Shown piece after piece: positions 12,051 through 26,281 of a stretch of DNA of 64,000 bases. Under the pieces are notes generated by a model. The model made no database searches. It was not told the origin of the DNA and worked only from the letters and a program-made list of their open reading frames with translations. Position 1 is the stretch's first letter. Each line of letters opens with the position of its first letter. A program made the position numbers and the translations under genes. Origin of the DNA: Pseudomonadales bacterium (lineage in GTDB: Bacteria > Pseudomonadota > Gammaproteobacteria > Pseudomonadales > DC-out160); assembly GCA_019090455.1 (NCBI GenBank), contig JAHRWA010000105.1:1-64000 (forward strand). Direction: 5' to 3'.

Positions 12051-12245
12051 CTACTCGCTCGCCTCTCTTTGCTGCTGCTCTTTCTCTTTTTGAATTCGAA
12101 GGTATATCTCTTCACGATGCACTGCCACTTCTTTGGGTGCATTGACGCCGATTCTGATCTGATTGCCTTTAACACCTAATACGGTAACAGTCACATCATC
12201 TCCAATCATCAAGGTCTCGCCGACTCTGCGGGTCAAAATCAGCAT
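12051..12245 (-). CDS. csrA: Carbon storage regulator CsrA/RsmA
   Basis: A 64-aa homodimeric RNA-binding protein that represses or stabilises mRNAs by binding GGA motifs near ribosome-binding sites. The sequence starts [20 protein letters not shown] and keeps the RNA-contacting VAVHREEIY segment, with a Gln/Glu-rich tail. A strong Shine-Dalgarno AAGGAG precedes the ATG. It lies downstream of lysC, as in pseudomonads. Its activity is probably titrated by the RsmZ-like RNA at 24,613-24,790. Confidence 0.98.
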
Positions 12246-12586
12246 GTTTTATCTCCTTAATATCCTTAAGCTACTACGTTTCCAGACTGATGCTTTGACA
12301 ACCTTGGAAACCGCTTACAGCCAAATTCATGGGCCGTTATTATCAGTATTGACTACCCAAACCAAAAAGGAAGGTTACTTTTTAACTAATCTTCGATTAT
12401 TTGGTTATGGGTTGGTGAAACATTCACCAGCTATGATCTAAGTAGCAGTTTATTGACAGATTTCTTCTGCTTACAGCTGGTCCGCCTAAAATCAATGAAA
12501 GATTTTGGTTGCGTCAAATCGGGACAAAGTATATAGGTCTTGCGTGCTGATGAAAACCCTTGAGAAAAACTTATTAACTAAAATAG
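12246..12586. other. Intergenic region between lysC and csrA
   Basis: About 340 bp holding the csrA promoter region and the lysC 3' trailer. Only weak inverted repeats are visible (for example GTTTCCA/TGGAAAC at about 12280-12312 and GGTGAA/TTCACC at about 12414-12428). I see no gene. Confidence 0.5.
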
Positions 12587-23990: not shown

Positions 23991-24314
23991 ATGACTTTTG
24001 TAGTTGCTGAAAATTGCATTAAATGTAAATACACCGACTGTGTGGAAGTGTGTCCTGTAGATTGTTTTTACGAAGGGCCTAATTTTTTAGTCATTCACCC
24101 AGACGAATGTATTGACTGCGCATTATGTGAGCCAGAGTGCCCTATTAATGCCATATTCGCTGAAGACGAGCTACCCGAAGATCAACACGAGTTTATCGCT
24201 CTGAACGCAGAATTAGCCGAAAAGTGGCCTAACATTACCGAAATGAAAGATGCGCCATCGGATGCCGATGAATTTGACGGTGTTGAAGGTAAAATTGATC
24301 TACTGGAAAAATAG
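23991..24314 (+). CDS. fdxA: Seven-iron ferredoxin FdxA
   Basis: A 107-aa soluble electron carrier with one [3Fe-4S] and one [4Fe-4S] cluster. The cluster motifs are [17 protein letters not shown] and [13 protein letters not shown], followed by the long acidic C-terminus typical of the Azotobacter FdI type. It is downstream of mutS with its own ribosome-binding site and a strong terminator at 24,328-24,357. Confidence 0.97.
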
Positions 24315-24327
24315 CCCAAAACGAAAT

Positions 24328-24357
24328 AAGGCGGTTGCTATACAGCAACCGCCTTTA
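24328..24357 (+). terminator. fdxA terminator
   Basis: GGCGGTTGC and GCAACCGCC form a perfect stem with a 6-base loop, followed by TTT, 13 bases after the fdxA stop codon. Confidence 0.88.
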
Positions 24358-24612
24358 GAGCTTTCACCTAAACCCTATGCCTTCCTGGCTATGAAACTCC
24401 CTCATGTCTTCCTTAACAGGGTATCCCTAACCCCTTATCCTTCATCGCTCTTCCTGAACGCTTACCTATAAATATAGCTGGATATGGTTAGCATGCAAAA
24501 ATATTGTCGGTTTTTAAGCCACCAATAAAGTTCATGCGTAGCCTAGCGTGATACAAACAGTTTTTCTTCCGCCACCTGACTCAAGTCGTCAGTAAACGGT
24601 AATTTTGGCGAC

Positions 24613-24648
24613 AGAAAAAAAGAAGGGCGGTATGACCGCCCCTTCTCA
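24613..24648 (-). terminator. Terminator of the RsmZ-like RNA
   Basis: On the minus strand GAAGGGGCGG-TCATA-CCGCCCTTC is followed by seven T residues. It points leftward, away from rpoS. rpoS has its own terminator at 25,002-25,035, so this one implies a separate minus-strand transcript. Confidence 0.9.
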
Positions 24649-24790
24649 TAGAGGGGTTTTCCTTTCCCCTAAAAATGCTCCCTGCCTACATCCATGTCTC
24701 TCATCATCCTGACGAGATTTCCCTTTGGACATCCTTGCCCGACCCAAGAACTTTAACAAAACCCTGGGTTTTGACAACCGTCGGCACTTT
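24613..24790 (-). ncRNA. rsmZ: RsmZ/CsrB-type regulatory RNA candidate
   Basis: On the minus strand this stretch carries seven GGA motifs (plus-strand TCC at 24660, 24665, 24679, 24691, 24707, 24720, 24732) within 75 bases, in contexts such as CAAGGATG, CAGGATG, ATGGATG and AGGGAG. It ends in a strong Rho-independent terminator (24,613-24,648). It lies between rpoS and fdxA, the location of rsmZ in Pseudomonas. Such RNAs sequester CsrA/RsmA by presenting GGA motifs in hairpin loops. The 5' end is not fixed and about 24,790 is an estimate. A palindrome resembling the GacA upstream site is at 24,912-24,929. Confidence 0.8.
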
Positions 24791-24911
24791 AATTCGGCTG
24801 GACTTATTTTCAATACAGAAATATTTTTATTTTAAAATACAATAAGTTACATTTTTACTACGTATTATTAAAGGGTTTTTACAACTAAAGAACTACATCT
24901 TCCTACAAATA

Positions 24912-24929
24912 TGTAGGATATATCTCACG
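24912..24929 (-). promoter_or_regulatory. GacA-type upstream activating palindrome
   Basis: TGTAGG-ATATAT-CTCACG has the spacing and most bases of the GacA site TGTAAG-N6-CTTACA. It lies about 120-180 bp upstream of the likely start of the RsmZ-like RNA, similar to the distance in Pseudomonas. Binding is inferred. Confidence 0.5.
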
Positions 24930-25144: not shown

Positions 25145-26281
25145 TCACATGGAAAACAGGGACTCTCCCGACAAACCTTGTTTTTCTAGAATATCTCGCA
25201 ATCGCTTGAGAGCCTCCACCTGTATCTGACGAACTCTTTCTCTAGTTAAGCCTATCTCTCTTCCCACTTCCTCTAGAGTACTCATTTCGTAGCCTCTCAG
25301 CCCAAAACGTCTAGCCACCACCTCTCTTTGTTTCTCCGGCAGTTGATCTAACCAGTGATCAATATTATTTTTAAGATCTGAATCCTGCAATAATGTCGCA
25401 GGATCCGACACCTCTTTATCTGCAATGGTATCCAACACTGACTTGTCGGAATCATATCCGAGCGGCGTATCAACCGACGTAACTCGATCATTTAACCCCA
25501 ACATCTTTTTCACATCTTCAACAGGCCTATCCAAAAGTTCCGCAATCTCTTCTGCCGAGGGCTCATGATCCAACTTTTGAGTTAATTCACGGGCTGCTCG
25601 CAAATAAACATTTAGCTCCTTTACGACATGGATTGGTAATCGAATAGTTCGCGTTTGATTCATGATGGCGCGCTCAATGGTTTGACGAATCCACCAAGTT
25701 GCGTAAGTCGAAAAACGAAACCCCCTTTCAGGATCAAATTTTTCCACCGCCCGAATCAGCCCTAGGTTTCCTTCTTCGATTAAATCCAATAAAGACAACC
25801 CACGGTTAACATATCTACGTGCTATTTTCACAACCAAACGTAGATTACTTTCGATCATACGCTTGCGTGCATCTTCATGTCCCCGCAATGCTCGGCGGGC
25901 AAAATAAACTTCTTCCTGAGGACTCAGTAAAGGGGAAAAGCCAATTTCATTTAGATAAAGCTGAGTAGCATCAAGCGTTTTCTGAAATGTTGCTTCACCT
26001 CTTTTATTAACGGGACTACGTTTTTTCTCTACAGCCTCTTTTTTATCACTTTTAGCGGTCGTAGTAGATCCTGCTGCTTTTTTCGGTTTTGCTTTGGCCT
26101 TTGCTTTTGGCTTGATTTTTGGTTCCGTACTAGGCTTCGCTTTTGTTTTTGCCTTAGCTCTGGTTTTTTTTACAACCGCTTTCTTTTTAGTTTTAGGTTT
26201 TTCTTTTTCTTCTACCGTTGAGTCGTCAATCGCAACCGGCTCTTTCAAATCTATGTTCTCTTCTATTTCAGCTTTCAACAT
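25145..26281 (-). CDS. rpoS: Stationary-phase sigma factor RpoS with Lys-rich N-terminal extension
   Basis: A 378-aa sigma-38 that directs RNA polymerase to stationary-phase and stress genes. Region 1.2 starts near residue 102 ([19 protein letters not shown]). Region 2 ([34 protein letters not shown]), region 3 and region 4 ([20 protein letters not shown]) are intact. RpoS is normally about 330 aa with conserved sequence from about residue 50. Here residues about 27-90 are an added low-complexity stretch of Lys/Ala/Pro ([12 protein letters not shown]), resembling the histone H1-like tail of AlgP. It is downstream of nlpD, as usual. Confidence 0.97.

Follow-up and report, generated by a model that had tools for sequence, protein, structure and literature searches.

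In the Gac/Rsm system, GacS phosphorylates GacA, GacA acting at its box induces a small RNA, and the RNA titrates CsrA; CsrB and RsmB follow the same logic of a CsrA sponge. The scheme is touched on in PMC7911923, which also describes rsmX-1 and rsmX-2 of Pseudomonas brassicacearum as lying in tandem, with copies that are 75% alike and both exclusively Gac-dependent. Csr/Rsm RNAs beyond this control have been described as well: RsmV and RsmW of Pseudomonas are named as Gac-independent in the same paper (PMC7911923), csrB1 of Vibrio tasmaniensis figures in PMC6262261 as a VarA-independent copy, and CsrR2 of Alcanivorax dieselolei is presented in PMC9788540 as a GGA RNA with a possible sigma-70 promoter, constant in two conditions, that is antisense to fdx and beside hpt. 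Tandem rsmX (PMC7911923) and duplicated csrB are in print; in the passages of open-access full text covered (including PMC2375449, PMC4353343, PMC4824345, and PMC5568370), the rpoS-fdxA gap is not reported to hold Rsm RNAs in tandem.

Organization of the rpoS-fdxA Gap

The locus considered here lies in a stretch of 64,000 nucleotides from a Pseudomonadales bacterium (contig JAHRWA010000105.1), hereafter the window. Its rpoS (25145..26281, minus strand), the upstream neighbor, and the convergent fdxA (23991..24314, plus strand) enclose a gap of 830 nt, and the families of both genes score above their curated cut-offs, which bears out the rpoS/gap/fdxA synteny claimed in a first-pass annotation of this DNA. 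The gap holds two candidate RNAs on its minus strand. RNA1 (24615..24743), an RsmZ-type RNA of approximately 129 nt presumed to bind CsrA/RsmA, lies between rpoS and fdxA on the strand of rpoS, which is the arrangement of the rsmZ locus, and it is followed head to tail, after a spacer of approximately 142 nt, by RNA2 (24324..24463), a GGA-rich RNA of approximately 140 nt. Along the minus strand the order is an inverted repeat, a GacA-type box, the RNA1 promoter, RNA1, the diverged spacer, the RNA2 promoter and RNA2. The first of these, a terminator-like repeat 3' of rpoS (25034-25002), has a counterpart composed of different letters in the same-genus relative. With this relative (L090, genome G001), the sole same-genus genome among those searched, identity amounts to 79% in the box block, 68% in the RNA1 promoter, 81% in RNA1, 76% in the RNA2 promoter and 83% in RNA2; outside of these elements it falls to 41% in the sequence preceding the box, 62% in the stretch from the box to the RNA1 promoter, and 60% in the spacer that separates the two RNAs.

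RNA1 and Its Sequence Motifs

The start of RNA1 was predicted from the -10 element of a putative promoter, TTGTCA-N16-TAAAGT with an extended -10 TG (24750..24777, minus strand). Two hairpins are supported by both covariation and the model R1 described below, namely hairpin 1, GGGC-AAGGAT-GTCC (24727..24740, minus strand), and hairpin 2, CTCGTC-AGGAT-GATGAG with AGGA in its loop (24700..24716, minus strand); the counterpart of the latter in L090 is TCCGTC-AGGAA-GATGGA, in which the changes are paired. The region of a third hairpin (AGGCAGGGAGCAT; 24675..24687, minus strand) is weak in the window and stronger in L090, L091, and L010, and the RNA closes with a strong terminator (24615..24644, minus strand) that is kept in relatives. 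Two features proposed in the first-pass annotation, seven GGA motifs in 75 nt and a separate strong terminator, are indeed present, the former at 24734-24660 and the latter at 24644-24615 of the minus strand, whereas its transcript of 150-180 nt is longer than the RNA1 predicted here.

When the gap was dinucleotide-shuffled 1000 times, seven GGA per 75 nt were reached in 6 shuffles and seven per 100 nt in 39, the latter a density that three further places on the minus strand of the window also attain. The count of A-N-GGA, five per 100 nt, is the highest of the 64 kb on both strands and was matched by 4 of 1000 shuffles. By a simple count, three GGA of RNA1 fall in hairpin loops, compared to 3, 5, and 3 in Pseudomonas rsmZ controls; this count was matched by 59 of 500 shuffles for RNA1 and by 17, 0, and 23 of 500 for the controls. 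The fold energy of RNA1 is by itself unremarkable (z -1.26). Short and terminated, with seven GGA, five A-N-GGA and covariation-backed hairpins, RNA1 carries the motifs of a sponge RNA. Nonetheless, the evidence within the window by itself exceeds chance only in part; the number of GGA and the box are weak when taken alone, and it is comparison that carries the case.

Recurrence of RNA1 Across the Order

The model R1, which comprises three hairpins and the terminator, was built from four RNAs, those of the window, L090, and L091 and the second RNA of L010. A search of 390 genomes of the order returned matches at 25 places in 22 genomes, and 22 of these places, distributed over 19 genomes, have rpoS, fdxA, or both as neighbors inside flanks of 1.5 kb. 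With the training genomes excluded (G001, G033, and G172, identified by identical RNA, and G000, the window's own), 15 of 18 genomes have a match beside rpoS or fdxA. Three matches (L154, L156, and L158, with 6, 2, and 0 GGA) have neither gene in their flanks and were counted as misses, the locus of L156 being 1639 bases long with its neighbors visible in part. At L154 (G294:C4:64277-64418), R1 scores 36.1 bits, and a box matching 10 of 12 positions lies 66 nt upstream of the six-GGA match, which may represent a further Rsm RNA at a locus of its own. A second match in the genome of the window (C35:344754, 19.7 bits) contains only two GGA and was rejected. R1 also recognizes three Pseudomonas rsmZ RNAs on which it was not trained, at 37.6, 31.6, and 27.3 bits (E 1.2e-5 to 1.7e-8), and through this cross-match RNA1 is recognizably related to Pseudomonas rsmZ.

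Covariation was counted on an alignment of 29 matches from 22 chosen loci, which includes the four training RNAs and the three Pseudomonas rsmZ; L138, L151, L154, L156, L158, and L160-L162 were left out, the last three because their RNAs already enter as the second matches of L144, L146, and L142. Among 28 distinct rows, changes on both sides were found in 21 of 27 pairs, a count that, being made on a model-fitted alignment, leans toward R1. There were 112 cells with both-side changes compared to 30.7 in shuffles, 91.9% of cells paired compared to 72.3%, and none of five measures was reached in 500 shuffles; sliding the partners by one to three columns lowered pairing to 50-61%. The hairpins, the box spacing and the position, all recurring in relatives, are what decides the case for RNA1 as a putative functional RNA.

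The GacA-Type Box and the Promoter

The box of the window, CGTGAG-ATATAT-CCTACA (24912..24929, minus strand), agrees with TGTAAG-N6-CTTACA at 9 of 12 positions, and on the plus strand (24912-24929) it reads TGTAGG-ATATAT-CTCACG, the palindrome that the first-pass annotation had correctly recognized. Just inside it, a further half-site-like TTGTAGGA (24901..24908, minus strand) was seen by eye, with similar letters in L009, L012, and L090. The same-genus relative has TGTGAG-ATATTT-CCTACA at a distance equal to that in the window. Genome-wide, 68 sites fall within one mismatch of the degenerate consensus and 71 within one mismatch of a reversed-pattern control; because this frequency is at the level of chance, the box is meaningless by itself, and its weight comes from where it lies and from its conservation rather than from the motif. 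Fifteen of the 68 sites were inspected for A-N-GGA following them. The sole listed site with zero mismatches (C25:45208) lies inside a frame of 345 aa, with a single A-N-GGA within the 320 nt that follow on each strand, and was rejected as another Rsm promoter.

The box of the window starts 179 nt upstream of the R1 match, which is the usual distance. Among the 19 genomes with an R1 match beside rpoS or fdxA (L154, L156, and L158 being omitted from the list), 11 have a box scoring 9-11 of 12 at 178-184 nt before the match (L137, L139-L147, and L157), and three more have one at 190-214 nt (L152, L153, and L159); no box was found near the expected place in the remaining five (L148-L151 and L155). 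Control stretches of 40 nt elsewhere upstream in the same loci scored 9 or higher in 15 of 308 cases, some of which are real boxes of a neighboring RNA. In L148, whose RNA is the same as that of L009, the R1 match begins within a longer RNA and the box lies further up, at -301; in L149 and L150, the GGA-rich letters that precede the R1 matches have a similar appearance. In Pseudomonas-type gaps (L054-L088 with fdxA), the densest GGA cluster follows the box at 176-199 nt in 21 of 22, the exception being an Azotobacter gap of 2500 nt (L071) in which scans gave no clear GGA cluster; the corresponding distance in the window is 195 nt. The extended -10 pattern occurs once per gap, just upstream of the RNA, in six of seven gaps tested and is absent in L010. 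By a looser pattern, a promoter of the window type stands at -27/-28 in only 5 of 22 R1 places (L137, L139, L140, L147, and L157), and hence it is not common to all of them.

Genes of the Gac/Rsm System

gacA is present in the genome, with 307.6 bits for the UvrY/SirA/GacA family against a cut-off of 280, directly upstream of uvrC, beyond which a putative pgsA was recognized by eye. A full-length GacS/BarA-like kinase of 973 aa, encoded next to a putative cysM (by eye), covers positions 1-911 of the 920 of the model and scores 876.3 bits, just below the cut-off of 890, the next best protein reaching 446.3 bits. The sole csrA match of the genome (12090-12245) lies in the window in a gene at 12054..12248 on the minus strand, 12.4 kb from RNA1, in agreement with the 12 kb given in the first-pass annotation. 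Its product carries Leu4 and Arg44, which we take to have a role in RNA binding. gacA, a gacS-like gene and csrA/rsmA are thus found together in one genome, as a Gac/Rsm sponge would call for.

Relationship of RNA1 to Rfam Families

The likeness to RsmZ put forward in the first-pass annotation finds an echo in Rfam, but a weak one: RNA1 scores 25.8 bits with RF00166 (PrrB_RsmZ) and 21.9 bits with RF00018 (CsrB; E 6e-4 in an 830-base search), below the gathering cut-offs of 44 and 71, respectively, such that there is no gathering match at RNA1 in the window. The best RF00195 (RsmY) score in the whole genome is 16.1 bits (E 0.3, cut-off 57). A stretch that scores higher than RNA1 with RF00166 (C2:56284-56391, 30 bits) consists of the 3' end of an enoyl-CoA hydratase-like frame (by eye) and a terminator, and was rejected as a second RsmZ. 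At gathering, Rfam returned nothing in 11 of 14 loci tested, including the RNA-bearing L009, L010, L012, L090, L091, and L099, and called RsmZ at 111-135 bits in the Pseudomonas controls L059, L077, and L084, whose rpoS-fdxA gaps hold the three rsmZ recognized by R1. Since the score of RNA1 lies below the cut-off, "RsmZ-like" is the right term, and RNA1 is not a member of RF00166 by the definition of Rfam, though it is related to that family and situated at its locus.

Tandem Arrangements in Other Genera

In the rpoS-fdxA gaps of g54 (L010, which is G172, and L144) and g103 (L147), a longer GGA-rich RNA is followed by an RsmZ-type RNA with a box of its own. The longer RNA of L010 follows a perfect box and has 22 GGA in 291 nt; each of the two RNAs there has its own box, and Rfam is silent on both. 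Two GGA-rich stretches were seen by eye in L091 and L012. When terminated GGA RNAs were counted automatically, 7 of 18 R1 gaps (L140-L142, L144-L146, and L155) came out with two; because the count missed known cases (RNA2 in both the window and L090, the two RNAs of L012 and that of L157), it was not used as a census.

Three further gaps drew attention. The gap of L099 (1170 nt) has a box followed by approximately 480 nt with many GGA and one clear terminator, perhaps a single sponge RNA of great length or a pair between which a terminator was missed. In Marinobacterium ramblicola (L051, gap of 320 nt), a GGA-containing tandem repeat with a unit of approximately 50 nt follows rpoS and is not obviously an Rsm RNA. 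A record titled Pantoea sp. (L083, NZ_VWXI01000002.1) has a Pseudomonas-type rpoS, a box, a GGA cluster and fdxA, and its name may be wrong.

A tentative reading, to which we give somewhat less than even credence, is that the rpoS-fdxA gap serves in this order as a nursery of CsrA sponges in which lineages independently built tandem arrays, an RsmZ-type RNA joined to a CsrB-sized one in g54 and g103 and to an unrelated Gac-free one in the genus of the window, where the pair would act as a sponge with two inputs, RNA2 setting a Gac-independent level of CsrA titration and RNA1 adding a Gac-triggered pulse.

A Second Candidate RNA in the Gap

RNA2 lies downstream of the coordinates covered by the first-pass annotation, which omitted it. 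It has a sigma-70-like promoter, TTTGCA-N17-TATATT (24471..24499, minus strand), of whose 29 bases the same-genus relative shares 22, and a terminator with a short, weak T tail (24324..24355, minus strand), the repeat of which could be used by fdxA on the plus strand. RNA2 itself, with six GGA, is identical to its counterpart in the relative at 123 of 149 bases, and its fold is more stable than that of shuffled sequences (z -4.48; none of 200 equally stable). No GacA box was recognized before it, the best scores in the spacer (7 of 12 in the window and 8 of 12 in L090) being at background level. What is new here is this predicted second GGA-rich RNA, with a sigma-70-like promoter of its own and without a GacA box. 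A model of RNA2 made from both genomes of the genus matches only those two among the 390 (E 0.001); the case for RNA2 rests on two sequences, and our own terminator scan did not count its terminator. Between the two RNAs there is barely any similarity (14.8 bits for R1 on RNA2 and 14.4 bits for R2 on RNA1), which makes a recent duplication unlikely.

Proposed Function and Alternative Explanations

The observed sequence, conservation, covariation and geometry, together with the finding of gacA, csrA and a gacS-like gene in the genome, indicate that RNA1 is very probably a Gac-controlled, CsrA-sequestering small RNA and the positional counterpart of Pseudomonas rsmZ. The RsmZ-like RNA and Gac/Rsm switch suggested by the first-pass annotation gain support from the recurrence of the RNA, its hairpins and the distance of its box in the gaps of relatives, and RNA1 fits, by sequence, every step of the Gac/Rsm scheme. 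From these data we infer the transcription of both RNAs, the binding of GacA and CsrA, and effects on targets as follows. Phosphorylated GacA would bind the box approximately 180 bp upstream of RNA1 and switch on its sigma-70 promoter with extended -10. The ensuing RNA of approximately 129 nt would present A-N-GGA in hairpin loops and linkers and bind several CsrA dimers, such that CsrA-repressed mRNAs would be freed. RNA2, transcribed from a sigma-70-like promoter without a box, would most likely be a second CsrA sponge that provides a Gac-independent supply of decoys.

That the locus is a product of chance, a gap that is rich in purines, happens to contain a terminator and a palindrome and encodes no functional RNA, is very improbable. 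In favor of this view, plain GGA density is equaled at three further places in the window and the box has a chance-level frequency, but independent genomes share the RNA, the covarying hairpins, the spacing of the box and the gap itself. The role of RNA2 is less certain, and we consider it probable that it is a CsrA sponge. On the somewhat unlikely alternative, RNA1 would be an RsmZ-type sponge and RNA2 no sponge at all, instead constituting a 3'-end or antisense RNA of fdxA, or else one that acts by base pairing. The end of RNA2 lies 9 nt short of the fdxA stop, with a terminator repeat that could serve this gene, its most conserved 3' third has a hairpin with AGGU and not GGA, and the numbers of GGA in its loops, from two sequences, are not clearly above chance (matched by 45 and 209 of 500 shuffles); moreover, Alcanivorax CsrR2 is reported (PMC9788540) as a GGA RNA that is at the same time antisense to a neighboring ferredoxin gene, which suggests that RNA2 might act on fdxA. 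However, four of the six GGA of RNA2 align with identical GGA in L090, where the other two are shifted, two are found in AGGA hairpins, the promoter of RNA2 is its own and conserved, and its sequence does not overlap the reading frame of fdxA.

If RNA2 is a sponge, as we favor, it could also be made by read-through from RNA1, in which case the two would be Gac-controlled together and the missing box would be irrelevant. The head-to-tail order with its spacer of approximately 142 nt would permit this, and the second RNA of the gap does have a box before it in g54 and L147; nevertheless, the strong terminator of RNA1, retained in relatives, and the conserved promoter-like sequence before RNA2 argue against read-through, which we regard as unlikely. 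Independent expression of RNA2 as a Gac-free sponge beside a Gac-controlled RNA1 is the reading carried forward here.

With good comparative evidence, the Gac/Rsm switch is thereby extended to lineages in which Rfam calls nothing at the locus, and R1 provides a covariation-backed model able to find such RNAs. The rsmZ position and the spacing of the box are common to lineages well outside Pseudomonas, and the second candidates in the gap, differently controlled or CsrB-sized and present in several genera, form a series in which the growth and multiplication of sponge RNAs may be followed.

Comparison With Known Systems

With Pseudomonas RsmZ, RNA1 shares the gap, the strand, the order of box and then GGA at a similar distance, a length of approximately 130 nt, seven to eight GGA and a terminator; it differs in that there is little letter-by-letter similarity and in that, in the genus of the window, a second RNA follows. 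Compared to CsrB/RsmB, RNA1 has approximately one third of the length of the 356-position model; in the rpoS-fdxA gap, L009 carries an RNA of 246 nt with 15 GGA and L010 one of 291 nt with 22 GGA. rsmX-1 and rsmX-2 are likewise Rsm RNAs set in tandem at a single locus, but RNA1 and RNA2 hardly resemble each other, and a box was found for RNA1 only. RNA2 resembles CsrR2, the two being set side by side by description, in its richness in GGA, its sigma-70-like promoter and an adjoining ferredoxin gene; CsrR2, however, is reported as antisense to fdx, and RNA2 does not overlap fdxA. csrB1 and RsmV/RsmW are similar in being Csr/Rsm RNAs that escape GacA/VarA control in genomes which also encode Gac-dependent ones, and differ in that a tandem with the Gac-controlled copy is not described in the passages covered. 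Tandem rsm genes and Gac-independent copies are both already known, and the predicted pair of RNA1 and RNA2 is a lineage-specific twist on them.
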